64,000 nucleotides of DNA, from contig NZ_FNZR01000002.1 of assembly GCF_900109365.1 (NCBI RefSeq), forward strand, positions 744,001-808,000, in the 5' to 3' direction. Under the pieces are notes generated by a model that made no database searches, was not told the DNA's origin, and was given only the letters and a program-made list of their open reading frames with translations. Positions within the stretch are counted from its first letter, which is position 1. The number at the start of each line of letters is the position of its first letter. Both the position numbers and the translations under genes were made by a program. Positions 28,994 through 58,219 of the stretch are shown piece after piece. The stretch comes from Parapedobacter koreensis. Its GTDB lineage: Bacteria; Bacteroidota; Bacteroidia; Sphingobacteriales; Sphingobacteriaceae.

Positions 28994-29007
28994 TACTTTC
29001 CTAATTT

Positions 29008-33486: not shown

Positions 33487-33506
33487 GCGCAGTTTATACA
33501 TTCGTC

Positions 33507-36889: not shown

Positions 36890-36937
36890 CCCCCAGCCAA
36901 ATGACTCATTATTAACGATGCTCATAAGCTATTCCAT

Positions 36938-38725: not shown

Positions 38726-38743
38726 TCATAGCATTGAAATTAT

Positions 38744-39698: not shown

Positions 39699-39706
39699 TA
39701 ATTTTG
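39699..39706 (+). promoter_or_regulatory. -7 element of the Kelch-SARP regulator gene
   Basis: TAATTTTG, an exact TAnnTTTG match, 36 nt before the ATG at 39742. A TTTCG at 39674-39678 lies 20 bp upstream, a weak -33. Confidence 0.5.
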
Positions 39707-39741
39707 TATGGTGTAGGCCTTTTGAGTGACACCCTTAAATT

Positions 39742-42300: not shown

Positions 42301-42308
42301 TACGGCTA

Positions 42309-42527: not shown

Positions 42528-42687
42528 GGCTTAAAATTTAAGTTTACCCTGTGGTTTATAACTCCTTAATGAGATTCCCGGCCTCGGTTCAGTACCCGCT
42601 CATCCTACCGGGGGTATCAAATATATAAAAAATTTCCAATTAGTCAAAGAAGATTATGCAAAAAATATTACGGCCCGTGCTTACACA

Positions 42688-43257
42688 TCAGCGTCTCCGC
42701 TTCAATGCTTCATGAAGCCCTTTGACGTCGGCCTCCCATGTGGGCAGCAGCAAGACCATAATCGTTTCTTCAATGATGTCCAAGGCGGTAACGGATAGCG
42801 CGATATAGAACAGCCCTAATGAAGGTGAGGGCTGGAAGAATGCAAGCACCAAGAATATCCCCTGAAAGACGGCCGCGACCTTGGCCAGGTAGGTGTGAAA
42901 GCTGGTCGCCTTTCCATACTTGAAAAACGCAAGCGACAGCTGTACCAGAAAAAGCAACAATAGGAGCAGCACTCCCATATACTCCTGTACAATGAATGAC
43001 CAATGCCACACCAAAAGCCCCACGATGGCCATCAAGACCGTCAGGTCATCGGCGATGGAATCCAGCTTTGCCCCCATCACGCTCACCACCCTGTAGCGAC
43101 GGGCAAGGTAGCCATCTATCGCATCGGTAAAGAAGCTCAATGGCAGTAGCCATTTGAACACATCCTGCTGGTCCGTGAGGATGAATAGCAGCAACACCGG
43201 AGCAGCTACCAGGCGATAGTACGTGATGCCATTGACGATGTGATAGGCTTTGCGCAT
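42688..43257 (-). CDS. CDP-alcohol phosphatidyltransferase family protein
   Basis: 189 residues with about five or six membrane helices. The family motif D-x2-DG-x2-AR-x8-G-x3-D-x3-D is complete (DAIDGYLARRYRVVSVMGAK, then LDSIADD). Such enzymes join CDP-diacylglycerol to an alcohol (glycerol phosphate, inositol or other) in the membrane. Which alcohol cannot be read. Confidence 0.92.
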   Translation of the reverse strand: MRKAYHIVNGITYYRLVAAPVLLLFILTDQQDVFKWLLPLSFFTDAIDGYLARRYRVVSVMGAKLDSIADDLTVLMAIVGLLVWHWSFIVQEYMGVLLLLLLFLVQLSLAFFKYGKATSFHTYLAKVAAVFQGIFLVLAFFQPSPSLGLFYIALSVTALDIIEETIMVLLLPTWEADVKGLHEALKRRR

Positions 43258-43301
43258 GTCACACCAAAGGTCGCGAAAATTAGTTGACGAGGCAACTTCG
43301 T

Positions 43302-43820
43302 TTAGTCCTGTTTGCGCTTCAATACGAGCGCGCTGAATAATGCGATGATCAGCCCCAGGGGAAGTACCTCCGCATAGGTAATCAGCACCACCATCACCGG
43401 GCTCTTATACAGCTCTTTGAAGGTAGCCATTTCTTCGGTTTTCGCGGCCAGCTCAGCCGGCGTAGCCCCTTCCGCTTCGGCCGTACGCAAGACATAACCC
43501 GCGTATTTGTCCATAAAATCAGGGATAAACCCGTAATAATAGACCAGCCACACCAAGACGTAGATGGTGGATGCAACCAAGGCGATGAAAAGCCCCGTCT
43601 TGAAAGCCTTGCCAAACGAAATGAACCCACCGAGGTACTTATTGCGGTAGTTTCTTATCCCCACGAAGATAAACGAAAAAGCAACGACCATGGCCGTATA
43701 GCCCATGGTGGTGTTGCCCTTGAAATCTTCCTTGTGGTAGCATAAATAAACGCCGTACACCATCATGGCGGTGATGATCACCCCCGATATCAGTCCGAAT
43801 ACAATTGCTGTTCTTTTCAT
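43302..43820 (-). CDS. DUF4199 domain-containing membrane protein
   Basis: 172 residues from MKRTAIVFGLISGVII with four membrane helices and the DUF4199 phrases GGFISFGKAFKTGLFIALVAS and PLGLIIALFSALVLKRK. The family is restricted to Bacteroidota and of unknown function. It is read after the LuxR-type gene and probably in the same transcript. Confidence 0.88.
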   Translation of the reverse strand: MKRTAIVFGLISGVIITAMMVYGVYLCYHKEDFKGNTTMGYTAMVVAFSFIFVGIRNYRNKYLGGFISFGKAFKTGLFIALVASTIYVLVWLVYYYGFIPDFMDKYAGYVLRTAEAEGATPAELAAKTEEMATFKELYKSPVMVVLITYAEVLPLGLIIALFSALVLKRKQD

Positions 43821-43907
43821 TGTTGAAGGATTAATTGTTTGTTTCGGGTACAAAGATGGCAGGTAAACCTCACTTTCGGGTCATACTTTCGGGTGATTTT
43901 GCAAGCA

Positions 43908-44375
43908 TCACGGGATGATTCCCAGTTTCTTGGCCTTGTCCACGGCCTGTGTGCGGCGTTTGACCTCCATTTTGTCGAACAGCCGTGAAGAATGCGTTTT
44001 GATCGTGTTTAGCGAAACAAACAGGCGCGAAGCGATTTCCTGGTTGCTCAGCCCCTCGGCCATCAGCCCCAGCACTTCCACTTCGCGGCCGCTCAGCCCC
44101 AGGTGCGCCGCCGCCGTTTCATTGAATACGAACGCGCCATTACGGGTGATTTCTTTTTCTACGATTACCGTCTGCACCTTAGGTTTAGCCAGTTTCAATG
44201 CCAGCCAAATCCCCAGTGTGGTAAACGTGATTGCGATAGCGCCCACATAAATTTCGAAGTAGTGGTCAATGATGATAAAACGCAGCTTAAACCATTGCAG
44301 CAGGAACAGCAGCACCGCCAAGGCAATGCCATACAGCAATGGAATCCGATATCTGGTGGGGCGTCTTACGGGCAT
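43908..44375 (-). CDS. Membrane-anchored LuxR-type transcriptional regulator
   Basis: About 155 residues from MPVRRPTRYRIPLL. Two membrane helices (about 10-30 and 40-62) precede a C-terminal LuxR/GerE HTH (LSGREVEVLGLMAEGLSNQEIASRLFVSLNTIKTHSSRLFDKM, quoted for position 105-148). There is no receiver domain. This membrane-LuxR plus DUF4199 pair recurs in Bacteroidota. An upstream start at 44426 would lie in the divergent promoter region. Confidence 0.85.
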   Translation of the reverse strand: MPVRRPTRYRIPLLYGIALAVLLFLLQWFKLRFIIIDHYFEIYVGAIAITFTTLGIWLALKLAKPKVQTVIVEKEITRNGAFVFNETAAAHLGLSGREVEVLGLMAEGLSNQEIASRLFVSLNTIKTHSSRLFDKMEVKRRTQAVDKAKKLGIIP

Positions 44376-44407
44376 GCTTCCTGAAATTACCGGAACAAAC
44401 TTAGCCA

Positions 44408-44428
44408 ACTTGCCCATAAAAGGCAAGT
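44408..44428. promoter_or_regulatory. Inverted repeat between divergent LuxR-type and fructosamine kinase genes
   Basis: ACTTGCC-CATAAAA-GGCAAGT, a perfect 7-bp inverted repeat in the 70-bp divergent gap. It is a candidate operator shared by both genes. Confidence 0.4.
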
Positions 44429-44445
44429 GTTTTGTATCTTAGCCC

Positions 44446-45330
44446 ATGTTTCTGTCCCAGTCACTCTTTCAAGCCTTTGAGACGGCGCTCAACGCAGCAG
44501 CGCCCAATGATTTCCACATCCAGGGGGTGATGCCGGTGTCCGGCGGAGACATCAGCCGTGCCTACCACCTGAAGACCGAATTTGGCCACTACTTTGCCAA
44601 AGTAAATGATACCGCCCACGCCACCCAGCTATTCTTGGCCGAATCGGCAGGACTAACGCTGCTACGAAAGACAGTCGGCATCCATGCCCCGCAGCCGCTC
44701 ATGGTGGGCCAGGCACACGGTGAAGCGTTCATCCTGATGGAATGGATACACGCAGCCAGCAAACATAGCGAAGCCGGGCAGGAGGCATTGGGCCATATGC
44801 TGGCCACGCTGCATCGCCAGCATCACGATACCTTCGGGCTCGACCATGATAATTTTATCGGCCGGCTGCCCCAGTCCAATACGCCTTCGACAGACTGGAC
44901 GGAATTTTTCATCGGCCAGCGCCTGCAAAAGCAGCTGGATATCGCCCGGCAACACTTCGGCGAAGCCGGCTTGCAAGCGCCATTCGACCGGCTGTTTTCC
45001 CGCCTGGGCGAGCTGTACCCACAAGAGCCTCCTGCTTTACTGCATGGCGACCTTTGGAGCGGCAACTACCTTGTGGATACGGCAGATCGTCCGGCATTGA
45101 TTGACCCCGCCATTTACTACGGACACCGCGAGGTCGATATCGCGATGACCAAACTGTTCGGCGGGTTCTCCACCCATTTTTATGCAGCATACAACGAAGC
45201 TTATCCCTTGCAGGCAGGCTGGGAGCAGCGTATGGATCTATGGAACCTCTATCCGCTATTGGTGCATCTCAACCTGTTTGGCGAGTCTTATCTTGGTGCT
45301 ATACAGCGCAGTTTGAAGCAGTATGCTTGA
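44446..45330 (+). CDS. Fructosamine kinase family protein
   Basis: 294 residues, the size of bacterial FN3K-like kinases. Kinase landmarks are FAKVNDTAHATQLFLAESAG (Lys), HGDLWSGNYLV (catalytic loop), LIDPAIYYGHREVDIAMTKLFGGF and the C-terminal RMDLWNLYPLLVHLNLFGESY. These enzymes phosphorylate ketoamines on glycated amines or proteins and trigger deglycation. The last 218 bp are duplicated at 54716-54933. GC content is high here (about 55% in one sampled line) and falls sharply right after the stop. Confidence 0.94.
   Translation: MFLSQSLFQAFETALNAAAPNDFHIQGVMPVSGGDISRAYHLKTEFGHYFAKVNDTAHATQLFLAESAGLTLLRKTVGIHAPQPLMVGQAHGEAFILMEWIHAASKHSEAGQEALGHMLATLHRQHHDTFGLDHDNFIGRLPQSNTPSTDWTEFFIGQRLQKQLDIARQHFGEAGLQAPFDRLFSRLGELYPQEPPALLHGDLWSGNYLVDTADRPALIDPAIYYGHREVDIAMTKLFGGFSTHFYAAYNEAYPLQAGWEQRMDLWNLYPLLVHLNLFGESYLGAIQRSLKQYA
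45113..45330 (+). repeat. Left copy of a 218-bp direct repeat (3' end of fructosamine kinase gene)
   Basis: 45113-45330 and 54716-54933 are the same length and match at 209 of 218 bases by hand alignment, in the same orientation. Similarity starts at TTTACTAC and ends just past the stop codon. The left copy is the functional end of the kinase gene. Confidence 0.9.
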
Positions 45331-45506
45331 GCCCAGCAGTAGAAGTAAAACAAGTGAAAAGCACCCTGTATTGCGCAGGCCAGGCAGCCGTGCTCCCCGA
45401 CGGGACTTCCAGGATGCAGACATGAAAACCCAAATGCAACCGTCATCAAGGCTGTTACGAATGTGTGGAAAGAAGTCAATAATGGGATAGAAAACAAAAA
45501 AATGAC

Positions 45507-45514
45507 TAATTTTA
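45507..45514 (+). promoter_or_regulatory. -7-like element of the Crp/Fnr gene
   Basis: TAATTTTA, one base off TAnnTTTG, 19 nt before the ATG at 45534. The rest of the 203-bp gap after the fructosamine kinase shows no gene. Confidence 0.35.
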
Positions 45515-45533
45515 CATAAAAGACTCCGTACGC

Positions 45534-46115
45534 ATGCAAGAACTACGCGATTATCTCAATCAATATGCTTCTACGTTAATTTCGGATGAAGAGTTTGAGG
45601 TTATCAGGCGCCACTTTACCCCAAAAAAAATAAGGAAAAAGCAATACTTACTACAAGAGGGGGAAATAGGTAAACATATGGCTTTTGTAGTGAAAGGAGC
45701 TATGCGAAAATACTATATAGATGAGAAGGGGACGGAAAATATTGTAGACCTTTATATTGAAAATTGGTGGGCAGGTGACCGTGAAAGTTTTGTCATGTTT
45801 ACGCCCAGTATCTATCATATAGATGCATGGGAAGATTGTGAATTACTGCTCATTTCGAGAGAAGACACCTTAAAATTGTGTAGTCAATGCCGTGCTTTTA
45901 ATGAATTGTTGTTAAAACTTGATGAACGAAATAACATTGCCGCACAAAAAAGAATAACCTCTTCGATTAGCTTTACCGCAGAGAAACGCTATGAAGATTT
46001 CGTTGGCTCCCATCCTTATTTTGTCCAGCGTTTTCCTCAACACATCATCGCCTCATATCTTGGCATTACAAAAGACACACTCAGTCGAGTTCGCAAAAAA
46101 ACACGCCAGAAGTAA
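45534..46115 (+). CDS. Crp/Fnr family transcriptional regulator
   Basis: 193 residues. A cyclic-nucleotide-binding-like barrel (RKKQYLLQEGEIGKHMAFVVKGAMRKYYID, quoted in part, residues about 35-65) is followed by a short helix-turn-helix (FPQHIIASYLGITKDTLSRVRKK) near the C-terminus. There are no FeS cysteines of the FNR type. It is AT-rich and opens the island. The redox and small-molecule genes that follow are its likely targets. Confidence 0.92.
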   Translation: MQELRDYLNQYASTLISDEEFEVIRRHFTPKKIRKKQYLLQEGEIGKHMAFVVKGAMRKYYIDEKGTENIVDLYIENWWAGDRESFVMFTPSIYHIDAWEDCELLLISREDTLKLCSQCRAFNELLLKLDERNNIAAQKRITSSISFTAEKRYEDFVGSHPYFVQRFPQHIIASYLGITKDTLSRVRKKTRQK

Positions 46116-46239
46116 GCGATTATTCCATCTTGTTTTATATTTCATAGACATTTGTCGATGTTTTTTTTCGCCATTTGTCTACGTTTTTTCCTTTGGGTTT
46201 AATGCAATTTTGTTACACAAAGTTAAATCAAACAAAGCA

Positions 46240-46893
46240 ATGGAAAAATCTCCCAAAATCGGTCTTGATGGTCTACTCCGCCCGGAAGACAGCTTCGTCG
46301 TGTTAATTGATCATCAACCCTTTCAGTTCGCAAACCTGAACAGCCACGAGCCCACAACGATTATCAACAACACTGTGGGGCTTGCCAAAGCCACAAAAAT
46401 CTTTCATGTGCCGACCATTCTGACAACGGTTACAGAAGAGCGTGGCGGATACATCCTTAAAGGACTACAAGACGTATTCCCTGAACAAAAACCAATCAAC
46501 AGGACGTTCATCAATACATGGGAAGACCCTAAGGTTACTGATATTGTAAAAGAAAGCGGTCGCAAGCAGTTGATTTTGGCGGGTCTATGGACAGAAATCT
46601 GTGTTGCTATGCCCGCAATCCAGGCTTTGGGCGAAGGATATGAGGTGTTCGTTGTTACAGATGCCTGTGGTGCAGTTAGCGCGGAGGCCCATGATATGGC
46701 TGTCCGCAGAATGGTGCAGGTAGGCATCGTACCAATCACTTGGATAGCCGCGGTTTCAGAATGGCAACGCGACTGGGCCCGTACCGAAACAGCCGCTCAA
46801 TTGGGGCCTCTTTTATTTGAGCACGGCGGAGCAAGCGGCGTTGCTCTAGCTTGGGAGCTGCAGCTGCTGGCAACCCATGCTGAAAAACACTAA
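46240..46893 (+). CDS. YcaC-like isochorismatase-family hydrolase
   Basis: 217 residues from MEKSPKIGLDGLLRPEDSFV. The cysteine-hydrolase fold is recognisable: Asp in VVLIDHQPFQF, active-site Cys in LAGLWTEICVAMPAIQAL, and the YcaC-type middle FVVTDACGAVSAEAHDMAVRRM. YcaC-like proteins lack an agreed substrate. It heads a tight run with the NTF2-like (17-bp gap) and pirin (7-bp gap) genes. Confidence 0.9.
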   Translation: MEKSPKIGLDGLLRPEDSFVVLIDHQPFQFANLNSHEPTTIINNTVGLAKATKIFHVPTILTTVTEERGGYILKGLQDVFPEQKPINRTFINTWEDPKVTDIVKESGRKQLILAGLWTEICVAMPAIQALGEGYEVFVVTDACGAVSAEAHDMAVRRMVQVGIVPITWIAAVSEWQRDWARTETAAQLGPLLFEHGGASGVALAWELQLLATHAEKH

Positions 46894-46910
46894 CTGAAAC
46901 TGACCATAAA

Positions 46911-47276
46911 ATGGCATATATGAATAATGATTTAGCCCTTCTACTCGAAAAAAATTTGGCTCAAGTATGGAGCGAAAGAGATGCTTCCCACAGAATAGAA
47001 TCGATACGAACCATCTACGCGATTAATAGTGGCCTATACCATGTAGGGCATCAAACGACCGGGTATGAGGCTATCAATGACAGCGTAAGTAAGGTGCTGG
47101 CAAATGTCCCTGCCACGTTTTCCTTTTTCAAACTGCAACCAATCGTCATCAACAACGATATCGGACGACTGATATGGGGCATGGGGCCAAATATAGAATC
47201 GATTGTCGCAACGGGGATGGATATCGCATTCTTTGAAGACGGAAAAATAAAATCATTGTATGTATTTCTTGATTAG
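46911..47276 (+). CDS. NTF2/SnoaL-like small protein
   Basis: 121 residues with the cone-shaped NTF2-like pattern (LAQVWSERDASHRIESIRTIYAINSGLYHVGHQTTGYEAI, spanning about 14-53; FFEDGKIKSLYVFLD at the end). Members are small isomerase/cyclase-like or binding proteins; no catalytic residue set stands out. It lies between the YcaC-like and pirin genes. Confidence 0.8.
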   Translation: MAYMNNDLALLLEKNLAQVWSERDASHRIESIRTIYAINSGLYHVGHQTTGYEAINDSVSKVLANVPATFSFFKLQPIVINNDIGRLIWGMGPNIESIVATGMDIAFFEDGKIKSLYVFLD

Positions 47277-47283
47277 CTAAAGG

Positions 47284-48159
47284 ATGAAGAAGAAAACCAG
47301 CTTTTCTACAAAAGGACAACGGGCCGATATAGGCGATCTGACCATCTACCGGATATTGGCGAATAGATATACTGATGCGGTTGGTCCGTTCGTATTTCTG
47401 GACCATATCGCCCCAAAAATGCACGCTGCCCATAAGAATGGAGGAACCGGGGTGCACCCCCATCGCGGCATTGCGACACTCACGTACCTCATTGCAGGAG
47501 AGGCCACCCACTTCGACAGTGCCGGGAACCACGCGACGGTTCACTCCGGCGGCATCCAATGGATGAAAGCCGGAAATGGTATCCTCCACGACGAAACGCT
47601 AAATGCCGATTCGCAAACAGACAGTAGTCAGACGCATGCCTTTCAATTCTGGATTAACCTGCCGGCAAAGAACAAAGTTGAAAAACCAGCATACCTTGCC
47701 ATCCAGAGCAATGAAGTCCCACAAAAATCATTACTAAATGACAGTGGCTGGATAAAAGTAATCGTAGGAAACTATGAAGAACTGAGCTCCCAAATACCCA
47801 ATTATTCGGAGCAGTTTTTATATCATATTCAAGTCGAAGCAGGTAAAAATTTCACCCTTGCCGCTGGCGAGAAAGTCGAAATTGCTGCATTCTTGCCTAC
47901 GCAGGCCGCAATAATCAATGATGCTGAATTTCAGGCAGGAGAGTTTATAGAATTTGACCGGGCGGCTGGTGAGATAACAATTGAAAATAAATTGCAGGAA
48001 GCCACGGACATCCTGTTGTTCGGCGGGGAACCCTATACCGAACCGATTGTGGCCGAAGGTCCGTTCGTGATGAACAGCCGATCTGAGATAGCAGATGCTT
48101 ACCGCGACTTTTATGCTGGGAAATACGGCAAAATCGATGATCAAAAAGGAAAAGTATAA
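47284..48159 (+). CDS. Pirin family protein
   Basis: 291 residues with two cupin domains. The N-terminal metal site is intact: HPHRGIATLTYLIAGEATH, then GGIQWMKAGNGILHDE (His, His, His, Glu). Bacterial pirins include quercetin dioxygenases and redox-sensitive modulators. It starts 7 bp after the NTF2-like gene and is very probably co-transcribed with it and the YcaC-like gene. Confidence 0.95.
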   Translation: MKKKTSFSTKGQRADIGDLTIYRILANRYTDAVGPFVFLDHIAPKMHAAHKNGGTGVHPHRGIATLTYLIAGEATHFDSAGNHATVHSGGIQWMKAGNGILHDETLNADSQTDSSQTHAFQFWINLPAKNKVEKPAYLAIQSNEVPQKSLLNDSGWIKVIVGNYEELSSQIPNYSEQFLYHIQVEAGKNFTLAAGEKVEIAAFLPTQAAIINDAEFQAGEFIEFDRAAGEITIENKLQEATDILLFGGEPYTEPIVAEGPFVMNSRSEIADAYRDFYAGKYGKIDDQKGKV

Positions 48160-48203
48160 GTTCAAATAGCATCAAAACACCTTTAATTTAAATTAACAAC
48201 GGG

Positions 48204-48393
48204 ATGAAAACGAAAAAAAATGGCGCGCAAGCTAGTGCTGCCGCTTACGGAAGAGAAGAGTACATTACGGTGGAAAAAAATGTCAGGCTACACGTGACAG
48301 ATTTAGGCGAAGGAAAACCTGAGCGGCCATGGCCTGTTTTACGAAGAGCTGGAGAAATTCAATGCTGAATTATTGGCCTTTCTGCGAAAGTAG
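48204..48393 (+). pseudogene. Alpha/beta hydrolase remnant with a large internal deletion
   Basis: The first 38 codons read a normal alpha/beta-hydrolase N-terminus (GREEYITVEKNVRLHVTDLG, EGKP). After about 48321 the next frame reads the normal C-terminus (SGHGLFYEELEKFNAELLAF, LRK, stop at 48391-48393), including the conserved catalytic His context SGHG. The roughly 230 residues between, with the nucleophile, are missing and the joint is out of frame. Confidence 0.8.
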
Positions 48394-48435
48394 GGATCCG
48401 AAAAAGCAAGGTTATATCGTTAGCATAAAGACGAA

Positions 48436-48807
48436 ATGGGAAATAAAGAAATCGTATTGAGGGCCATGAATGAATTATTTCATGAAAAAGATAGCGAAGC
48501 GGTCGAACGTTACTGGCATGAAAACTACCAACAACACAACCCATCTATGATCAACGGTCACGAAGGGCTGAGAAACCTATTGCCGTTTCTGGATGCAGAT
48601 TTTAAGTGGCAGCCCGGCGTCATCGTGGAGGAAAATAACATCGTGATCACGCATAGCCTGGTACATGGATGGGGGCCGGTGCCGGTGGTGGTAGTGGATA
48701 TTTTCCGGCTGGAGGATGGAAAAATAGCCGAACATTGGGATGTCGTGCAGGAAGAGGTTCCGGCAGACAAATCAGCAAACGGAAATGCCATGACTTCTTT
48801 TCTGTAA
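48436..48807 (+). CDS. SnoaL-like/ester cyclase-type NTF2 protein
   Basis: 123 residues. SnoaL pattern: FHEKDSEAVERYWHENYQQH, NP, NGHEGLRNLLPFL, DIFRLEDGKIAEHWDVVQEE. Polyketide-cyclase-like proteins of this short type are widespread with unknown substrates. It follows the hydrolase remnant and is read in the same direction as the pirin group. Confidence 0.88.
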   Translation: MGNKEIVLRAMNELFHEKDSEAVERYWHENYQQHNPSMINGHEGLRNLLPFLDADFKWQPGVIVEENNIVITHSLVHGWGPVPVVVVDIFRLEDGKIAEHWDVVQEEVPADKSANGNAMTSFL

Positions 48808-48894
48808 TACCCTTTGAGAAATGAGGCAAACTTATGACTTGCTCTTAAATAAGTTAGGCGAACCGTTAAATATGTATTAAAAAGATCAGGAAAA

Positions 48895-50385
48895 ATGAAA
48901 AAAAGCAAAATCTTTATCCTCCTTCCCTTAATTTTTAGCATTTGTTCCTGTACTAAACAAGAGCCCTTCATGGACTATGTGCTGAGCTGGGACGGACATT
49001 CCGATATATTAGGTGTTGAACTCACTTATTCGGCTGCACAAAAAGACAGTACCGTCTTTATATTCGGAGATCCGAGTTTTGGCGGGCAGAACGATATATT
49101 TACGGTGATCAAAAATATCGGCTGTGTCGAGCCTGAAGTCCTCAATGTAGACGAAGTGGCCAGGCGGATCACAGTATACCATAACGGGGCAAAAGAACAC
49201 AGGCTCACTTATGAAATAGACGGATCGCTTCCCGCTGATAAACCCACGATAAGTTCCCAGATGGAACTGTTCAGGCCTGTTATCACCAAAGGCGTAATGA
49301 CGTTGGTTACTAAGCAGTTTGCCTTGAACATAACCGATGAACGTAATCCTTTGGTATCTTACGTTTGGCGTAGCTATCCCGAAGATGTCAGCTATTTCAA
49401 TTCCGTAAATCCATCCCAGACAGATCCATCGGAAAAACTTTCCGACCACTACGACGACGCAAAAATTAGCCTATTCGTTATGGGCGATAACATTAGCGTG
49501 GAGGAATACAACGTTATGGGCATCCCTTACTATTGCGTGACCACCAAAGAAGACCGGTATAGCAATGACCTGCAAGGGAGTCTCAGCCCTTTTTTTGAAA
49601 GCTATTTCCAGAGCATCCACAGGTTTTGGAACGATACCGATTTTCCGTTCTATTTTTTATCCGTCACGGCACTGCAAAACAACCAAAAAGAAATAGGGGG
49701 AGGTGGTTTTGGGATAAAGAATGGCTTTGTCATGAAGTTGGGTAGAGCATTCGGCATACGGGAGAAGTACGTTACGGCCCACGAAACCGCCCACTCGTGG
49801 ATAGGAATCAAGATCATGTTAGGTGAGGGTAGTTTTGACCATCAATGGTTCGGCGAGGGGTTTAACGATTATACCACCATCATTAATTTGGCCCACAGCA
49901 AAATTTTCTCGGAGGAAGCGTTTATGCATTACCTCAATGAAGAGAATTTGAAAGAACATTACGAGAGTGCGATTAAAGGTGTACACAACGATTCCATTGC
50001 CGCAAATTACTGGACGGATTATGCCAATTACGGCGTTCTTCCGTACCGGCGGGGCCTAATCTATGCTTTCTGCCTCGATAACCATATCCGGTTAGCGTCG
50101 AACGGAAAATTTACCCTCCGGAATATGCTGCTCGACCTGTTCGAGGTTAGAAAGACAAAAACGAAAGATGAGATTTTAACGGTTGATGACTTCATTAACG
50201 TTGGTGCTACTTATTTGGACAAAAAAGAGCTTGCAGGGCAGATAGAACGTTATATGATAGCAGGACAACCCATTGATTTTAACACGGTAAAACTTAGTGA
50301 CGAATTTCAAATCGAAATCACCAACAATATTCCGAAGGTAAGCTTAACAGAAGGTGCTGATTTGTCGAACATATATCAGTGGTAA
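48895..50385 (+). CDS. Gluzincin-like metallopeptidase lipoprotein (M1/M61-like)
   Basis: 496 residues with a lipoprotein signal (MKKSKIFILLPLIFSICSC). A zinc site HETAH (H296-E297, H300) is followed by an EGFNDY motif whose Glu (E321) is the likely third ligand, after 20 intervening residues. In textbook M1 peptidases that spacing is 18. The long N-terminal half is beta-rich, as in M1/M61 enzymes. It is probably a surface or periplasmic peptidase; substrate unknown. AT-rich like its neighbours. Confidence 0.8.
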   Translation: MKKSKIFILLPLIFSICSCTKQEPFMDYVLSWDGHSDILGVELTYSAAQKDSTVFIFGDPSFGGQNDIFTVIKNIGCVEPEVLNVDEVARRITVYHNGAKEHRLTYEIDGSLPADKPTISSQMELFRPVITKGVMTLVTKQFALNITDERNPLVSYVWRSYPEDVSYFNSVNPSQTDPSEKLSDHYDDAKISLFVMGDNISVEEYNVMGIPYYCVTTKEDRYSNDLQGSLSPFFESYFQSIHRFWNDTDFPFYFLSVTALQNNQKEIGGGGFGIKNGFVMKLGRAFGIREKYVTAHETAHSWIGIKIMLGEGSFDHQWFGEGFNDYTTIINLAHSKIFSEEAFMHYLNEENLKEHYESAIKGVHNDSIAANYWTDYANYGVLPYRRGLIYAFCLDNHIRLASNGKFTLRNMLLDLFEVRKTKTKDEILTVDDFINVGATYLDKKELAGQIERYMIAGQPIDFNTVKLSDEFQIEITNNIPKVSLTEGADLSNIYQW

Positions 50386-50422
50386 TAAAAATTAACTAAA
50401 TGATGTTTAAATAGGTTTAAAA

Positions 50423-50743
50423 ATGAAAAGCAACTTAACAGGCAACCGATATATCATGGATGTAGGCGTTTTGAAAACCGAACTCTACTTCGAAACCGAT
50501 GAATCCATGGTGTTTACCATTATAGACGGCGGCTCCTTAACTGAAAACGGCTATTCCGAACACGTGGAAACCACTGTGGCTGAGATTCGTCCACAGGTGT
50601 ATATGATCGCATGGAAAGAACTTTCGGGCGCTACGGTAACGCATGTTGAAGACCATGAGAATGGCATTATTTACAGCAATGCAACCTTGCCCGATGGGAG
50701 CTTTTATACTATGAAGGGCACCATAAAACCCCTTTCACCCTAA
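50423..50743 (+). CDS. MoaF-like small protein
   Basis: 106 residues with a calycin-like strand pattern (MDVGVLKTELYFETDESMVF, YMIAWKELSGATVTHVEDHE, YTMKGTIKPL). It resembles proteins annotated with a MoaF N-terminal domain, lipocalin-fold binders of unknown ligand. It sits 37 bp after the peptidase and 10 bp before the antiporter. Confidence 0.65.
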   Translation: MKSNLTGNRYIMDVGVLKTELYFETDESMVFTIIDGGSLTENGYSEHVETTVAEIRPQVYMIAWKELSGATVTHVEDHENGIIYSNATLPDGSFYTMKGTIKPLSP

Positions 50744-50753
50744 GACACCATCG

Positions 50754-53057
50754 ATGGCACATTTACCCGAACTGATACAAGACATGGCACTGATCCTACT
50801 GGTAGGTGCTTTGGTGACCATTATTTTTAAGCGAATCAAGCAGCCCCTGGTTTTGGGCTATATCATTGCGGGATTTTTGGTCGGCCCACATTTCAGCTAC
50901 CTGCCCACCATTATGGACCACGAAAACATTGATACGTTTGCCGAGATTGGCGTCATCATGCTGCTGTTTAGCCTGGGGTTGGAATTCAGTTTCAAAAAAC
51001 TGGTCAAAGTGGGGGGCGCGGCATCCATCACGGCGGTGGTAGAAATCGTGTTTGTAGGCTTGGGCGGCTACCTAACAGGGTATCTGCTGGGTTGGAACAA
51101 AATGGATAGCCTATTTCTTGCCGGTATGTTGGCCAGTTCGTCGACCACCATCATCCTCAAGGCGTTTGATGAACTGGGATTAAAATCCAAACAATTCGCC
51201 AAAGTGGTTTTCGGGGTGTTGGTCGTCGAAGACATCATCGTCATCCTACTGATGGTGTTGCTCTCTACGGTTGCCGTAACGCAACAATTCGAGGGGTCGG
51301 AAATCCTTTTTACCATACTCAAACTCGGCTTCTTTTTGGTACTGTGGTTTTTGGTGGGGATTTACCTGCTGCCCGCATTCATCAAAAGGACAAAAAAATG
51401 GATGGACGAAGAAACGGTGCTCATCCTTTCGATAGGCCTTTGTTTTGGCATGGTCCTTTTGGCTACGCAGGTCGGGTTTTCAGCTGAATTGGGTGCGTTC
51501 GTCATGGGCTCCCTGATTGCAGAAACCGTATTGGCAGAAAAAATCGAATACCTTACCTTACCGATCAAACAGCTTTTCGGTACCATATTCTTTGTCTCGG
51601 TGGGCATGATGATCGATCCGCAGGCGATGTACACCTATGCTGTTCCGATAATTGCCGTTACCCTGCTGACGCTAACCGGAAAGTTTTTGTTCAGCGCATT
51701 GGGTGCATTGATTTCCGGGCAACCGTTGAAACAAGCTGTGCAAATAGGTTCCAGCATGGCCCAGATCGGCGAATTTGCCTTTATCGTGGCCGCTTTGGGG
51801 TTGTCGCTCGGCGTAATCTCCGAATTCCTGTTCCCGATTGCGGTAGGCGTTTCGGCAATCACCACGTTTACCACACCGTATCTGATTAAATTTTCAGAAC
51901 CGCTGTACAATACCATCGTAAAACTACTTCCTCCAAAATGGGTGGCACGCCTGGACGCCTACACGTCAGAGGCGCAGCAAAACAAAGACAATCCGCTTTG
52001 GAAGAAAATGCTGCGCGAATACAACAGCATACTGGTCATCAACAGCATTATGCTCGTTGCCGTCGCCCTGCTGTTCAAATACACATTCATTCCGTTTTTA
52101 GATGCGCAAATCACAAGTGTGCTCTGGCGGAATATACTGTTGATCAGTGCGGCTACCTTGCTGGCATCGCCTTTCCTCTGGGCTATCCTGATCAAAAAAA
52201 TCACGGTAAAAGAAGGCGGCGGAGCCTTTCACTCGTATTACCTGAATTATTCGGTGGTAGGTATTGCACTCCATGCCATCCGGTTCCTCGTTGGGATATT
52301 CCTGATTGGCTTTTTCATTGACCAGATCGCATCGACCCGGTATGCGTTGATCGTCGCTGTGCCGATTATCGTGGCATTGCTATGGCTTTTCTCTGACAAG
52401 GTTCAGAAAATCCATCAGCGGATAACGGGACAGTTCGTAGCGAACCTCAACGAACGGGAACGGCTGGAATATCTCCAACATAAGGGAACCATTGAATTGC
52501 AGCAAAAAAACGAAGAAGCAAGGAAGCATTTTCAGGAATGGAATGCCTATGTGACGGAACTTGAAGTCGGCGATGCCTTTAGCTTTGCCGGTATGACGTT
52601 GTATGAGCTCGACTGGAAACAGCGATATGGGATAGCTGTCGTGTACATCCGCAGAAATGACAGAACTATACACCTGCCCAACGGAAAACAACGGATATTG
52701 CCGTACGACAAAGTAGGCATATTGGGAACGGAAGAGCAGATTTCCCAATTAAAATTGCTCTTTGACCAAACAGATCTGCAAGAAGACGGCGGAGAAGATA
52801 TTGACGTGCACGATATCCAGCTTACGAAAATACAGGTTACAGCAGCCAACCCCTATTCAGGCAAAACGATAAAGGCCTCTGGCATCCGGAAAGATCTGGG
52901 TAGCTACGTGGCCGGCATCGAGCGGAACGGAAACCGGATTCTCAATCCCAGTTCATCTGAGGCGATCGTTGCCAATGATATCATATGGCTCGTGGGCGAT
53001 ACACGCAAAATAAATGCGTGTTTGAAAACCCATGAAGGAGATTTCCTTAACATATAA
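50754..53057 (+). CDS. CPA2 family monovalent cation:proton antiporter (KefB-like)
   Basis: 767 residues. A 12-13 helix Na+/H+ exchanger domain (about 1-385: VLGYIIAGFLVGPHFSYL, FLAGMLASSSTTIILKAF, SAELGAFVMGSLIAET, GSSMAQIGEFAFIVAALG), extra helices at about 430-550, and a C-terminal TrkA-C/RCK-like regulatory region (about 690-767: NPYSGKTIKASGIRKDLGSYV, NDIIWLVGD). It exports K+ or Na+ in exchange for protons. The stop overlaps the next start (TAATG). Confidence 0.95.
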   Translation: MAHLPELIQDMALILLVGALVTIIFKRIKQPLVLGYIIAGFLVGPHFSYLPTIMDHENIDTFAEIGVIMLLFSLGLEFSFKKLVKVGGAASITAVVEIVFVGLGGYLTGYLLGWNKMDSLFLAGMLASSSTTIILKAFDELGLKSKQFAKVVFGVLVVEDIIVILLMVLLSTVAVTQQFEGSEILFTILKLGFFLVLWFLVGIYLLPAFIKRTKKWMDEETVLILSIGLCFGMVLLATQVGFSAELGAFVMGSLIAETVLAEKIEYLTLPIKQLFGTIFFVSVGMMIDPQAMYTYAVPIIAVTLLTLTGKFLFSALGALISGQPLKQAVQIGSSMAQIGEFAFIVAALGLSLGVISEFLFPIAVGVSAITTFTTPYLIKFSEPLYNTIVKLLPPKWVARLDAYTSEAQQNKDNPLWKKMLREYNSILVINSIMLVAVALLFKYTFIPFLDAQITSVLWRNILLISAATLLASPFLWAILIKKITVKEGGGAFHSYYLNYSVVGIALHAIRFLVGIFLIGFFIDQIASTRYALIVAVPIIVALLWLFSDKVQKIHQRITGQFVANLNERERLEYLQHKGTIELQQKNEEARKHFQEWNAYVTELEVGDAFSFAGMTLYELDWKQRYGIAVVYIRRNDRTIHLPNGKQRILPYDKVGILGTEEQISQLKLLFDQTDLQEDGGEDIDVHDIQLTKIQVTAANPYSGKTIKASGIRKDLGSYVAGIERNGNRILNPSSSEAIVANDIIWLVGDTRKINACLKTHEGDFLNI

Positions 53058-54124
53058 TGGCTATTCAAGCGTTAAAATGGAGTGGCGTCTTAGCAAATAA
53101 AAAAATGGAAATAGGAATTGACAGTTTTGCATCGGCGATGTATGGCAGCCATACACTTAGCAGTGTCGATGCCATGGAACAATTATTGGAACGGATTGTC
53201 CGGGCCGACGCAGCGGGGCTGGCCGTTTACGGTATCGGCGAGCACCACAAGAAGGAGTTTTTGGATTCCGCACCCGCTGTCATCCTTGCCGCAGCCGCAG
53301 CCAAAACGAAAAACATACGCCTCACCAGTGCCGTCACTGTGCTGAGCACCTCCGATCCGGTACGGGTTTACCAGCAATTTGCCACGGTAGACCTGATAGC
53401 CAAGGGGCGGGCAGAGCTCGTCGTGGGCAGAGGTTCGGCAATAGAAGCCTATCCGTTGTTTGGGTTTGACCTGAATGATTACGATGCGCTGTTTGAAGAG
53501 AAATTGGAGCTCCTGTTGAAAATCCGTGAACAGGAATTCGTCACTTGGTCCGGAAAATTCCGGCCGGCGTTGGTAAACCAGCCGGTCTATCCCCGGTCAG
53601 CACAGGCGAAGCTCCCGATTTGGCTTGGTGTTGGCGGTACGCCTGCTTCATTTGTACGGGCCGGGACCCTGGGGCTGCCACTCATGGTTGCAATTATCGG
53701 CGGGGATACGGCGCGCTTTCGCCCATTGGTGGATCTATACCGTGAAGCAGGGCACCGGGCCGGCTTCGCACCGGAGCAATTAACAGTGGGCTTGCATTCG
53801 CCGGGCTACGTAGCCGATAGCAATGAGAAAGCGATTGCAGATTATTATCCGGGGTATGCCGAACTCTGGACCAAGGCGGGCAGGGAACGCGGGTGGCCAC
53901 CGGTAACACGGGCGCAATTCGATGCCGCGGTGGCTCCCAAAGGTGTGCTAGTGGTGGGTGGACCGGAACAGGTGGCCGCAAAATTATTGCGGCATAGCGA
54001 AGCACTGGGTGGTATAGACCGCTTTACCTTTCAAATGGATAATGCAGGGCTGAGCCATGAGCAGCTGTTGCGCTCCATCGAACTCATCGGTGCGGAGGTC
54101 ATCCCGCGGGTTAAAAAGGGATAA
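53057..54124 (+). CDS. LLM-class flavin-dependent oxidoreductase
   Basis: 355 residues if it starts at the TAATG overlap (53057), or about 339 from the ATG at 53105 (MEIGIDSFASAMYG), where family similarity begins. Luciferase-like landmarks: YGIGEHHKKEFLDSAPAVIL, RLTSAVTVLSTSDPVRVYQQ, GRAELVVGRGS, PIWLGVGGTPASFVRAG. It uses FMNH2 to oxidise an unknown substrate. It is translationally coupled to the antiporter gene. Confidence 0.93.
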   Translation: MAIQALKWSGVLANKKMEIGIDSFASAMYGSHTLSSVDAMEQLLERIVRADAAGLAVYGIGEHHKKEFLDSAPAVILAAAAAKTKNIRLTSAVTVLSTSDPVRVYQQFATVDLIAKGRAELVVGRGSAIEAYPLFGFDLNDYDALFEEKLELLLKIREQEFVTWSGKFRPALVNQPVYPRSAQAKLPIWLGVGGTPASFVRAGTLGLPLMVAIIGGDTARFRPLVDLYREAGHRAGFAPEQLTVGLHSPGYVADSNEKAIADYYPGYAELWTKAGRERGWPPVTRAQFDAAVAPKGVLVVGGPEQVAAKLLRHSEALGGIDRFTFQMDNAGLSHEQLLRSIELIGAEVIPRVKKG

Positions 54125-54126
54125 TT

Positions 54127-54507
54127 ATGATTAACGCAAATTTATCATCGGCTTATATTTTTGTGCTATCAGCACTTTTACTGGCCGGCAGCTGCACAAT
54201 CAGCAGTAGGACAAGTGAAGAAAAACCCCGGGGCAACCGTATCGGCTTTTTCGACGAAAACAACATGAACCTCTGCACCTTCAACGAACTCGACGGCAGT
54301 ATTGACGCGTTGGCACATATTGAGGAGTCGACAAGTGGCATGTACCGAAGAACGGTATGGAGCCCCGATGGCAGCCAATTTGCTTTCACCGGAACAGTAG
54401 ATGGTGTAAGAGGTACCTATATCGCCGATGCAGATGGCAGTAACCGCCCCAACCTGACAGAGTTGACACCCTCCTTTTCATTAAACCGACTTCTTATCCG
54501 GCAATAA
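54127..54507 (+). pseudogene. TolB/PD40-type beta-propeller lipoprotein, truncated
   Basis: 126 residues. A lipoprotein signal (FVLSALLLAGSC) is followed by one clear PD40 blade (RRTVWSPDGSQFAFTGTVDG, then YIADADGSNRPNLTELT), after which the frame ends in non-family sequence. Propellers need several blades, so most of the gene is missing. The 208 bp between its stop and the repeat copy hold nothing recognisable, consistent with an island edge. Confidence 0.6.
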
Positions 54508-54715
54508 ACCGAATATGAATTTATTCAAGATTGACATGGTAACGCTGGCAAAGAAACAACTCACGTTTGGTGGGCATAATTTTTTTACTCATCCCTCTAT
54601 CAACCACACTAAAAGATAATCCGACTGCAAAAATATTGCTGAAAAAGCTATAAAACCAACGGGATTAAAACAATCTTTGGTGCATGGGCCGGCGATTTTC
54701 GTACCTTGTGGCATG

Positions 54716-54933
54716 TTTACTACGGGCACCGGGAGGTCGATATCGCGATGACCAAGCTGTTCGGCGGGTTCTCCACCCATTTTTATGCAGCATACAACGA
54801 AACTTATCCCTTGCAGGCAGGCTGGGAGCAGCGTATGGATCTATGGAACCTCTATCCGCTATTGGTACACCTCAACCTGTTTGGCGAGTCTTATCTTGGC
54901 GCTATACAGCGCAGTTTGAAGCAGTATATTTGA
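54716..54933 (+). pseudogene. Right copy of the 218-bp repeat: orphan 3' end of a fructosamine kinase gene
   Basis: It encodes YYGHREVDIAMTKLFGGFST ... LFGESYLGAIQRSLKQYI, the last 72 residues of the kinase, with two amino-acid changes (A to T and final A to I). Seven of the nine base differences from 45113-45330 are outside the last codon, mostly third positions. No kinase N-terminus precedes it. It ends 18 bp before the convergent LytTR gene. Confidence 0.85.
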
Positions 54934-54951
54934 GGCGGCTGGTCGTCGCGC

Positions 54952-55821
54952 CTATTTTCGGTTGCGGTATTCCTCACGCCAGCTATCAAACTGCTTCACC
55001 TTACGCCTACTGATAGCGATTTCTCCAATTTTCCTCACCCGCCCCTGCATATCTATCTTGTCAAAAGGTTCCACCAGCCTCACCAACCTATTGCGGTTGG
55101 GGAGCCTTCTTCCCCCATCTACGATAGCCGACTGGTGAATGATGACATCGGGGGCTATGCGCATAAATTCCGTGGCGTCCAACTGCCTTTCCGCATCGTC
55201 AAGACTTTCTTCCATCACCGGATCAGCATGTTTTACCGTATCCCGTAAGCGGACACGATTCATCTTATGCTTATGGTGATAGCAATAACGGATGTTGGTC
55301 GCCGCTACTTTCCCGTCGAGCGTAAGCAAGTATTCCAAGTACACATTTTTTGGTGTAGCACCCGTGGGCGTAAGCCGCAGCACCCCATGGATAAAGAGCA
55401 CGGCCATGTTTACCAGGAGCATATAGAGCAAAAACACGAGGGCAAACATCACGTCCAGGGAAAACCTGAACATCCCATTTAGCAACCATTCGAATACCAT
55501 CCCTTCAAACAGGTAAGTCAGGGTACCCACCCCTGCTATCCCCAGTGCCACCTGTATCCAAAACCGACGCGAAGTGCTCGTATTGGCCCACGCATAGCCA
55601 TTCAGCTTACCGGTGATGTAGTCTACCAGTGAAACAGCTGCCAGCGAAATCCCAACTATTAAAATAAATAAGCTGAAATAATGCCGGTTTGAAAAGAGCA
55701 ATGGCCACTGCGGCCCCATTCCATTTGCATATAGCAATACAGCACCTACCAATGCAAGGCCCGTCATTACCAAGATGTGTTTCAGTGAGCGAAAAAAAGA
55801 AGTGGTAACGTATTTATGCAT
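54952..55821 (-). CDS. Membrane LytTR-type transcriptional regulator
   Basis: 289 residues. Four membrane helices (about 14-32, 46-66, 86-106, 120-146) are followed by a linker and a C-terminal LytTR domain (MRIAPDVIIHQSAIVDGGRR, VRKIGEIAISRRKVKQF). This Bacteroidota type has no kinase or receiver partner. Just upstream of its start, 55822-56118 (297 bp) is non-coding and may hold its own operator. Confidence 0.85.
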   Translation of the reverse strand: MHKYVTTSFFRSLKHILVMTGLALVGAVLLYANGMGPQWPLLFSNRHYFSLFILIVGISLAAVSLVDYITGKLNGYAWANTSTSRRFWIQVALGIAGVGTLTYLFEGMVFEWLLNGMFRFSLDVMFALVFLLYMLLVNMAVLFIHGVLRLTPTGATPKNVYLEYLLTLDGKVAATNIRYCYHHKHKMNRVRLRDTVKHADPVMEESLDDAERQLDATEFMRIAPDVIIHQSAIVDGGRRLPNRNRLVRLVEPFDKIDMQGRVRKIGEIAISRRKVKQFDSWREEYRNRK

Positions 55822-56118
55822 ATCCGTTCATTTTTTACAAATCCCGGATACGTGTGCAATCCAATCAATGGCTCAGGCACCCGTCGCCGGGCAGGGGGCA
55901 ATCATTCGTTTCATGATCAGTATGTTTCTACTTGCTAAGTTACGAAGTAAAAGGGCGCATGCAGCCACGAAAACCGTAACTTTTTTATGCACTACCGGTA
56001 CCATCCGATACCGTTGTGCACCATTCACTACCGCAAATGTACCACTCGCGGAAATCCGCGCAAAAATCGCTTTGACTTTCATAGCCCCGTTTTTAATTTT
56101 ACATTAAACACGATTGTC
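55822..56118. promoter_or_regulatory. Divergent intergenic region with repeated CACTACCG
   Basis: 297 bp between the LytTR gene and the small membrane-protein gene. CACTACCG occurs at 55990-55997 and 56026-56033, with a further TACCG at 56009-56013 and an inverted CGGTA at 55996-56000. GTACCA occurs at 55998-56003 and 56039-56044. The clustering suggests regulator sites, but no exact TAnnTTTG is seen; TAATTTTA lies about 20 nt before the 56119 start. Confidence 0.3.
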
Positions 56119-56448
56119 ATGAAGCGAATCGCAACCTGTTTGAAAGATATCGTCGTCTGGGCAGCCTGCTGGCTAAAGGAGCACGGCATCAATCCGGCGG
56201 CCCCTTTTGCACTGCTTACTGGCGCAGCAATGGCCATTTTCCTCCCCAAGGGCGAACCCTGTACCTGTGAAGAGCAGCTTGACCCCGAATTTGTAGAAGC
56301 CCTGCAGCAACAGCGGGAAGAAGACTACGAAGCGTTCCTTAAATCGCGTGGCACCACTGCACTTTGTGCAGTCCAGTGGCTGCAATTGAAAGATAAGTTA
56401 GAAAAAAGACAACCCCTGATACAAACACACGCAAATCCTATGCAATGA
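56119..56448 (+). CDS. Small single-pass membrane protein, unknown
   Basis: 109 residues from the ATG at 56119. One hydrophobic segment (about 27-42, PFALLTGAAMAIFLP), then a CTC motif (GEPCTCEEQ) and an acidic helical tail. I do not recognise a family. Its stop overlaps the next start (ATGCAATGA), so it is translationally coupled to the Crp-like gene; the pair likely works together, for example sensor and effector. Confidence 0.65.
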   Translation: MKRIATCLKDIVVWAACWLKEHGINPAAPFALLTGAAMAIFLPKGEPCTCEEQLDPEFVEALQQQREEDYEAFLKSRGTTALCAVQWLQLKDKLEKRQPLIQTHANPMQ

Positions 56449-57095
56449 CAACACACGTACTCCATTATTTCATTGATCAGCTAATCGCCGCTGGAGACGG
56501 CCTTGAATCGTTCAAGCCCGACCTACTGACCCTGCTTATGCCCCTGCTCCACAAGGAACACAGCCAAGCCGCCAGGCAGCTCATGATCAAGGATGATATT
56601 CCACGCAAGCTGTACATCAAATATGCAGGCTTTGCCATGGGTTCACGGGAGAGCCTGCGCAATATGTTTCCGGTGGCTCCCTACCTTTGGCTTGGCCCTG
56701 CGGTGATGGCCGATTGGCGGGCATTGCTCTTAAAAAAGCCCGCCCGGTTTGATATCTCCGTAGAGCAGCATACCGATGTCTATTCATTGCGATTGGCCGA
56801 CGTGAAGTTTATCATCGATCGCTTCCGGCCGGTGAAGGGAGCGATACGAAATTTGGTGAGAAACCAAAATATCTACCTGAACAGTTACGACCGCAACCTC
56901 TACCAGTACGACGCCACGGAAAGGTACCTCCATATGGCCGAAGATTTCGGCGACCGGTTGGACAGTATTGCCAAGAAATACCAAGCAGCACATGTGGGTA
57001 TTGCACCCGAGTCGCTCAGCCGCATCCTCCGCAATTTGGGGCGGGGCGGGCAGTCATCCCTGCGTCACCGGCTGGGCATGCTCTTGGCATTGTAG
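56445..57095 (+). CDS. Degenerate Crp/Fnr-like protein
   Basis: 216 residues. The C-terminus carries a typical Bacteroidota Crp-type end (ERYLHMAEDFGDRLDSIAKK, AAHVGIAPESLSRILRNLGR), including the recognition-helix phrase PESLSRIL. The N-terminal 120 residues keep the length of a cyclic-nucleotide-binding domain but not its glycine-rich barrel motif. It is probably a divergent transcription factor. An ATGA overlap couples it to the small membrane protein. Confidence 0.65.
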   Translation: MTTHVLHYFIDQLIAAGDGLESFKPDLLTLLMPLLHKEHSQAARQLMIKDDIPRKLYIKYAGFAMGSRESLRNMFPVAPYLWLGPAVMADWRALLLKKPARFDISVEQHTDVYSLRLADVKFIIDRFRPVKGAIRNLVRNQNIYLNSYDRNLYQYDATERYLHMAEDFGDRLDSIAKKYQAAHVGIAPESLSRILRNLGRGGQSSLRHRLGMLLAL

Positions 57096-57107
57096 CATGT
57101 TTTTGGA

Positions 57108-57174
57108 TTAACCCCGGTTAACCCTTTCACCTAACCGTGGTCAATACAGCCGCTTCCCAATGTGGTTAATTTTG
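57108..57174 (+). promoter_or_regulatory. Promoter and repeated TTAACC half-sites upstream of the AraC gene
   Basis: The -7 element TAATTTTG is at 57167-57174, 20 nt before the GTG start. TTAACC (57108-57113) and GGTTAA (57116-57121) form an inverted repeat around CC. CTAACC lies at 57131-57136, and another GGTTAA at 57164-57169 runs into the -7 element. The layout suits autoregulation. Confidence 0.45.
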
Positions 57175-57193
57175 CAGGGTAAGCAAAATAGGC

Positions 57194-58219
57194 GTGGCCA
57201 CTGCATTCCATATCGACTTTCCCTTTGAAGTCGCTGAAACCTGTTTTCGGGCCGGCGAACACCCCGCGCTATGCCAGCACGCCATCCCACTGGCCTGTAC
57301 CATCATTTACCGTCGCCTATCGGGATCCGCATTCACCGCCACCCGGCAATACTATATCAACAGCCTGCTTACCATCGATTTGATGGAAACCACCAGTACC
57401 GACACCATCACCTTGTCCATCAGCCCGAAGAAAAAGCCCGTATATGTGCTATCCGTTGTACTGGATGGGCACTTCCATTTTGGATCCCCTACCCGCCATT
57501 GGGAAGCCTCGGCTCCCGGCGCGGCCTATCTGGCCCGTATAAGTGGGCATGCCTATCCCATCCAACTACCCAGCGGCACCGGAAGACTAATCAGCATTGC
57601 CATCCATACCGCGCAGTTGGCCGTCATCGGCGAAGATTTTGCCGAGCTCGCCGCACTCCTGGCAGGCAATCCCCTGATGGATGATTATTATAGCCCGTCC
57701 ATCCAGTCCGACCGCCTATTTATGCGTCGTCTCATCAAGCTTATCAGCCCGCCAAGCATGCAACGGCGCAAAGCGTTCAACCTGCACATCCAGGCCCACC
57801 TCCAAGGTGTATTCTCCGCTTTCAAAGGGCTGCTGAACGGCAAAGGGCAAACGCATTATAATCGCCAAAAGCTCGATACGATTGTGGCCCATATCAGGCA
57901 AGAAACCTCCCGGCACGGCCAGCCGCCGTCGCTGGCATCCGTCATTGATTTTGCCTGCGTATCTCCCGAAAAACTGCAGCAACTATTTAAGGCCGGGCTG
58001 GGCACCGCTCCACAGGATTATCTCCAAGCCTTGAAGATGGATGCCATCAAACAGGCCCTTCTATGCACGGACGAGCCCGTATATGCCCTGGCCGCAACCT
58101 TCGGCTACAGCGATGCGGCCGCACTCAATAAACCCTTCAAAAGGCGATTTGGCCTCAGCCCGCAACAGCTGAGGCAGCAGCGCGGTACTTGTCCATTTCC
58201 CGATCAAAACCCAAAATAA
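57194..58219 (+). CDS. AraC family transcriptional regulator
   Basis: 341 residues from a GTG start (57194), which agrees with the -7 element 20 nt upstream. A long N-terminal ligand-binding region (about 1-220) precedes a C-terminal AraC double HTH (LASVIDFACVSPEKLQQLFKAGLGTAPQDYLQ and ALAATFGYSDAAALNKPFKRRFGLSPQQLRQ, at about 255-285 and 300-330). It lies 52 bp upstream of the MauE-like gene and is the natural candidate regulator of the MauE/DUF6520/SusCD group. Confidence 0.92.
   Translation: MATAFHIDFPFEVAETCFRAGEHPALCQHAIPLACTIIYRRLSGSAFTATRQYYINSLLTIDLMETTSTDTITLSISPKKKPVYVLSVVLDGHFHFGSPTRHWEASAPGAAYLARISGHAYPIQLPSGTGRLISIAIHTAQLAVIGEDFAELAALLAGNPLMDDYYSPSIQSDRLFMRRLIKLISPPSMQRRKAFNLHIQAHLQGVFSAFKGLLNGKGQTHYNRQKLDTIVAHIRQETSRHGQPPSLASVIDFACVSPEKLQQLFKAGLGTAPQDYLQALKMDAIKQALLCTDEPVYALAATFGYSDAAALNKPFKRRFGLSPQQLRQQRGTCPFPDQNPK

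Follow-up and report, generated by a model that had tools for sequence, protein, structure and literature searches.

We have studied a stretch of 64,000 nucleotides of the genome of Parapedobacter koreensis (the window), which covers positions 744001-808000 of contig C18 in an assembly of 5.55 Mb and 27 contigs (G000). It contains a complete gene of the fructosamine kinase family, followed by a 9.4-kb island of other genes and then by a second copy of the kinase gene end. For comparison we have used a sample of nine Parapedobacter genomes, the present one and eight congeners, and 300 other genomes of the family Sphingobacteriaceae. The features of the locus are given in Table 1.

A repeat search of positions 43000-58000 gave a single family of direct repeats, 219 nt long and 96% identical, found on the same strand at 45113-45331 and 54716-54934. 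A sequence-only reading of this DNA had described a same-strand duplication of 218 bp with nine differences which stops after the stop codon, and this is what we find: 45113-45330 and 54716-54933 are identical base by base in 209 of 218 positions, and their likeness ends a few bases past the stop codon. The enclosed length of 9385 bp is also correct. With the nearest congener (G004) as a reference, the second copy extends one base to the left, to 54715 (a Val codon, present as well in G004), and the pair then has 10 differences in 219 positions. This second copy has an open frame of 75 codons which contains the kinase end only. The repeat is not due to chance, since the next best ungapped match to the 218 bases, in the whole window and on both strands, has merely 86 identities in 218. 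A misjoin of the assembly at the repeat is unlikely, because the longest exact match between the copies has 64 bases and the locus lies within a contig of 821 kb.

Table 1. Features of the kinase locus, with positions in the window
Feature	Position	Strand	Evidence
Fructosamine kinase family gene, complete, 294 aa, native left partner	44446..45330	+	PF03881, 282 bits
Repeat copy 1, 3' end of the complete kinase gene	45113..45330	+	repeat search, base-by-base alignment
Piece of RidA-family gene, internal codons, one-base frameshift	45335..45439	+	DNA match 82% over ~105 bp, G080:C1:1699092-1699197
CRP/FNR-type regulator, cNMP-binding domain	45534..46115	+	PF00027; 82% aa to G080
Isochorismatase-family hydrolase	46240..46893	+	PF00857; 80% aa to G080
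Small protein	46911..47276	+	74% aa to G080; no Pfam match
Pirin	47284..48159	+	PF02678, PF05726; 81% aa to G080
Alpha/beta hydrolase gene remnant, internal stretches gone	48164..48393	+	three pieces align with the G080 hydrolase gene and the bases upstream of it
SnoaL-like protein	48436..48807	+	PF12680; 89% aa to G080
M1-peptidase-like protein	48895..50385	+	PF01433 weak, 21.2 bits, cut-off 27.7; 80% aa to G080, 67-69% to G287/G311
MoaF-like protein	50423..50743	+	PF22036; 91% aa to G080
Cation/proton antiporter	50754..53057	+	PF00999, PF02080; 86% aa to G080
Luciferase-like (LLM) monooxygenase	53057..54124	+	PF00296; 86% aa to G080
PD40-type gene remnant	54127..54625	+	PF07676, 20.7 bits, just below cut-off 20.9
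Right edge of island	54626..54714		~90 bases between PD40 remnant and repeat copy 2
Repeat copy 2, orphan kinase 3' end, frame still open	54715..54933	+	repeat search, alignment
LytTR-like gene, 18 bp past the orphan end, first gene of the next layer	54952..55821	-	LytTR 14.7 bits, below cut-off 22.6
Three genes collinear with a G007:C23 block	55987..58219	+	second weakly Crp-HTH-like, third AraC family

The DNA between the two copies has a composition of its own. An abrupt drop in GC at the start of the island had been noticed in the sequence, and we find a fall from 0.56 in the kinase to 0.38 in the first island gene. The composition check also gives different values for GC at third codon positions (GC3): all nine intact island genes have 0.35–0.59 and the five genes to the left 0.645–0.69; the three genes to the right have 0.571 (the LytTR-like gene), 0.667 and 0.63. 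As a block the island is absent from all eight congeners. Partial DNA matches are found in six of them, mostly relatives of the LLM monooxygenase or of the antiporter, which we take to be of the KefB type; the longest match has 1158 bp and corresponds to KefB.

A relative of the island is present in another genus of the same family. Positions 45485-54625 are a reduced and nearly collinear version of a module of about 16 kb in G080, which has the following order: regulator, regulator, isochorismatase, small protein, pirin, PD40 remnant, OsmC, hydrolase, SnoaL, M1-like, MoaF-like, periplasmic-binding protein, GNAT, OsmC, KefB-type, regulator, pirin, LLM, YceI, RidA and isochorismatase (several of these names are taken from the homologous gene of the window). 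The main blocks shared with G080 have 77–81% DNA identity. Shorter versions of the module are found in G287 and G311, which belong to other genera of the family, with 71–78% identity, so that the same genes are found in the three genomes at 71–81% nucleotide identity, always with neighbours different from those present here. When compared with G080, the island lacks the OsmC, periplasmic-binding, GNAT, second pirin, YceI and last RidA and isochorismatase genes; its hydrolase is a remnant and its PD40 remnant lies at the opposite end. The absence of the block in the congeners, GC3 and the homologous module elsewhere uphold the earlier proposal of an acquired island: the 9.4 kb look like a foreign and eroded stress module. 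The two broken genes which had been reported in it are real. One is the hydrolase remnant at 48164-48393, whose identity is based on the Pfam match of the G080 gene; the other is the PD40 remnant, matched over 54219-54625, in which 54219-54368 and 54562-54625 correspond to neighbouring bases of G080.

We have also searched for the module in a wider set of sequences. The M1-like gene has full-length matches with 68–80% identity in three of the 300 other family genomes, one of them with an internal stop (G311:C29:6667-8157), and matches of 33–42% in four more. Contig C29 of G311 also has genes which we take to be similar to an IS66 set. A plasmid search with 45331-53300 gave 95 records; none covers 80% of the query, and among the 20 matches listed all are confined to the isochorismatase stretch. 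A literature search gave no account of a genomic island in Parapedobacter, and the papers listed for fructosamine kinase and genomic islands do not, judging by their titles, bear on this locus.

At the left joint of the island (45331-45335) the kinase stop codon meets the RidA piece within 4 bases. In the four loci compared, the matching codons lie inside a full-length gene; our piece has a frameshift. It has matches in 16 of the 300 other family genomes; the locus found in G080 has a full-length gene with PF01042 and lies outside the module. DNA homology to the module begins at 45485. The right joint, 54714/54715, falls at nucleotide 667 of the kinase. The preceding bases, 54626-54714, only have matches of about 41–43 bases with 79–83% identity in four genomes; the three which were inspected are in unrelated genes. 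The left joint enters a broken gene, and another one precedes the right edge, so that both joints look illegitimate and not like att sites.

The sequence-only reading had compared the locus with islands which insert at the 3' end of genes by means of an integrase, while stating that no integrase was present. The absence holds, the comparison is poor. In the whole genome we find six matches to PF00589 (tyrosine integrase) and two to PF00239 (resolvase), all away from this region; the only one in contig C18, a resolvase, lies at a distance of about 640 kb. None appears in C18:744001-821084 or in contig C23, which most likely continues the region as described below; the search did not extend to other families of recombinases and transposases, and the gap between the contigs is unread. 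An island of the integrase type which restored the kinase gene and has since lost its integrase would agree with the 3'-end site, the direct repeats and the restored gene, but not with the lack of these two families or with the broken genes at the edges. The kinase is matched in six of the eight congeners, with a single match genome-wide in each (G001 and G003 have none), and a second kinase end is absent from all six in the stretches of 11–20 kb searched. Furthermore, the cores of att sites are expected to be shorter and less divergent than 218 bp with 96% identity. We consider this origin highly improbable.

The differences between the two kinase ends give additional information. With G004 as the outgroup, five of the ten differences arose in copy 1 and four in copy 2, one being ambiguous. 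Six of the ten are synonymous, as are two of the four in copy 2. The dS value is 0.14 between the copies and 0.64–0.69 between the copies and G004. The earlier suggestion that the kinase tail was brought from a relative, or that the event is old, holds. The equal rates and the many silent changes fit two kinases which worked while they diverged better than a duplicate formed in place which decayed. The likelihood ratio in favor of two diverging functional alleles is 6.5–27 in 12 settings of a simple rate model made for this analysis, with ten changes and one outgroup (G004); this is modest support. The decaying duplicate would have formed if a broken end or a copying error had been repaired in place with foreign DNA, with duplication of a target of 218 bp and differences acquired later. 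Such an event yields the exact order which is found: full gene, insert, target copy and old downstream DNA. However a non-functional copy should change faster and less silently, whereas four changes are found in it versus five, two of the four silent, and the likelihood ratio is against it, although the data are few. An origin of this kind appears quite unlikely.

Two working copies could also result from a tandem duplication of the kinase (K1-K2), in which both genes evolved and the module later took the place of the spacer together with the initial 666 bp of K2. This would account for two diverged copies which look functional and for a joint inside the gene, and no donor which already held the module is needed. 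On the other hand there is one kinase match in each of the six congeners, and a deletion-insertion is required whose left edge falls no more than about 4 bases from the stop codon of K1. We judge it unlikely.

The explanation which we favor, with a probability of about 0.55, is that homologous recombination at the kinase 3' end, rather than a site-specific integrase, brought in the module. The locus has a complete gene on one side, an orphan end on the other, and a direct repeat which is precisely one gene end. The shared sequence thus stands as a direct repeat on either side of the insert, as in single-crossover (Campbell-type) integration, which can leave this layout of complete gene, insert, orphan end and old downstream DNA. 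In a close relative, with a kinase end about 96% identical, the module would already have been joined to the kinase stop through the broken RidA gene. A fragment which began at nucleotide 667 of the kinase, comprised the module and ended shortly after the PD40 remnant would then have entered the cell. It might have been circularised by end-joining (54714/54715), or its free end might have been joined illegitimately. A RecA-type single crossover within the roughly 218 bp of shared sequence would have placed it in the resident kinase. Such an event would yield a complete kinase followed by the module, with the orphan kinase end adjoining the DNA which already lay downstream in the recipient. The donor, the circle and the crossover are reconstructed in this scheme; the repeat, the broken edge genes, the composition and the module elsewhere are observed, as is the absence of PF00589 and PF00239 matches from the tract and of a second kinase from the congeners.

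Several points weigh against this capture. We have found no strain with the empty site or with the donor arrangement, the kinase of the nearest congener having 78% protein identity. The crossover point cannot be placed. The LytTR-like neighbour has a rather low GC3 (0.571), within the range of the island. The likelihood ratio comes from few changes, a single outgroup and a simple model of our own. Uptake of DNA by Parapedobacter has to be assumed. The right joint shows no recognised diagnostic microhomology, and the donor sequence beyond 54714 is not available for comparison; in the available text of PMC3240628, which describes experiments with lacZ in E. coli, 3–10 bp of microhomology are expected at an illegitimate joint. 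According to the same text, the variant with an illegitimate end gives inserts of about 1 kb with deletions of similar size, whereas here we have 9.4 kb and a duplication; lacZ was inactive in the E. coli clones, while the left copy of the kinase is complete.

On the right side of the locus, a conserved neighbour of the kinase can be recognised in other species. In the six congeners with a kinase the next conserved gene is ychF, at 214, 495, 1409, 2748, 2756 and 3607 bp. The contents between both genes differ, except for a gene of 884 aa common to G005 and G006 and a small ORF common to G007 and G008. The same borders with varied contents over 214–3607 bp in all six are the pattern of an insertion hotspot. 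In P. koreensis ychF is found in contig C23, followed by a gene of the M14-carboxypeptidase family as in G004. From ychF to the upstream end of C23 there are 18,982 bases, and from the kinase to the downstream end of C18 there are 31,754. The end of C23 has gajA and the start of gajB (model positions 6–228); the end of C18 has the rest of gajB on the other strand (234–593 of the same 594-position model). The orientation of both contigs agrees with the order kinase, then ychF. With gajB halved between the contig ends and the orientation in agreement, an unbroken tract is more likely than a chromosomal rearrangement which parted kinase and ychF, and we have dropped the latter. The two genes have most likely remained neighbours, with about 51 kb and an element between them; the join is inferred and not sequenced. 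The end of C23 runs into a sequence also found at the ends of C6, C9 and C16, with about 100 bases common to the four ends, as expected of a multi-copy insertion element.

These results contradict the idea that removal of the island and one repeat copy restores an ancestral convergent pair of kinase and LytTR genes, since ychF follows the kinase in the six congeners. The LytTR-like gene has a strong match in only one of the eight (G007:C23, 59% aa), in a contig different from that of the G007 kinase, and a weak one (24%) in another. The neighbouring gene is indeed there, but its LytTR domain is weak (Table 1), and the layer which it starts is probably accessory. The tract of about 51 kb contains the 9.4-kb island, the LytTR-like block, a zeta-toxin-like protein, an SbcCD-like pair and anti-phage genes, as well as genes which are presumably SusC/D-like. 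The island looks like one layer of a longer acquired stretch, placed inside what appears to be an accessory and anti-phage tract from the kinase to ychF, with contents which vary among congeners. It is conceivable, although doubtful, that the kinase stop codon is a capture point used repeatedly without an integrase, the gene end being a renewable homologous anchor which may be copied in the course of a capture. The LytTR-like and defence tract would have arrived first and the stress module later, with both joints no more than about 20 bases from the stop codon.

The anti-phage genes lie mostly past the right end of the window, in G000:C18:806000-821084 and G000:C23:85100-104007. They include a class II-type Argonaute model with a nuclease partner of the DpnII-MboI type, two PDC-S02 proteins, a PDC-S06 candidate, PDC-M64B, the zeta-toxin-like protein and Gabija, whose gajB gene is divided between the two contig ends, next to the multi-copy element.

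The island genes themselves are of familiar kinds. Their families point to a possible role in protection against reactive compounds or oxidants and in ion homeostasis. The small protein at 46911..47276 is, we presume, SnoaL-like. The antiporter has a relative in contig C14 of the same genome (74% nt over 1157 bp). The intact genes appear to be kept by selection, as their dN/dS values in comparison with G080 are 0.04–0.20, with dS above 1, near saturation, in seven of nine. G080 has two tandem CRP-type regulators and the island a single one (45534-46260); the DNA matches of both overlap the latter, which suggests that tandem copies recombined into a fused gene. For the M1-like gene dS to G080 is 0.54, and for the other eight genes compared it is 0.96–1.84; given this lower value, the module may itself be a mosaic.

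To the left of the kinase, the adjacent CDP-alcohol phosphatidyltransferase is common to G004, and LuxR and DUF4199 genes are common to G007. Positions 24650-42690 place about 18 kb between genes which are about 2 kb apart in G004, so that the left side may also carry an insert. The window has a second, weaker direct repeat at 413-505 and 7344-7436 (93 nt, 82%).

We may now compare this locus with systems which have been described. One of them is found in the available text of PMC3240628, in which 60 Lac- clones of E. coli took up a plasmid with an end of lacZ, and 56 of them gave the PCR product of a gene-end duplication. The duplications had 109–950 bp in 14 sequenced clones and were ascribed to a single crossover of a circle missing part of the shared end; four of the 60 clones looked like homology-facilitated illegitimate recombination. 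In both cases a duplicated gene end flanks the incoming DNA on its two sides; in P. koreensis it has 218 bp. The lacZ clones come from laboratory selection with a plasmid, whereas here the alleles have diverged and the event itself was not witnessed. Homology-facilitated illegitimate recombination has also been proposed for orphan parts in Vibrio arrays, in the text available of PMC5361080. The T6SS/Rhs arrays share with our locus one homologous anchor, one illegitimate joint and an orphan part shifted downstream of a module; they differ in that our orphan end is nearly identical to the end of the anchor gene, and it is only one end and not an array. Finally, the accessible part of PMC5635113 describes many hotspots without recognizable mobile elements and with frequent recombination at the flanking core genes. 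The region from the kinase to ychF is similar in its variable content, in the lack of PF00589 and PF00239 matches and in the probable recombination at a flanking gene. It differs by a long and probably continuous insert in only one of seven genomes, and by its left border, which is not strictly core as the kinase is missing in two of the eight congeners. The event would be of an ordinary kind, the capture of an island by homologous recombination in a variable spot poor in integrases. What is unusual is its legible scar: both joints and the homologous anchor of a gene capture without a visible integrase can still be seen.

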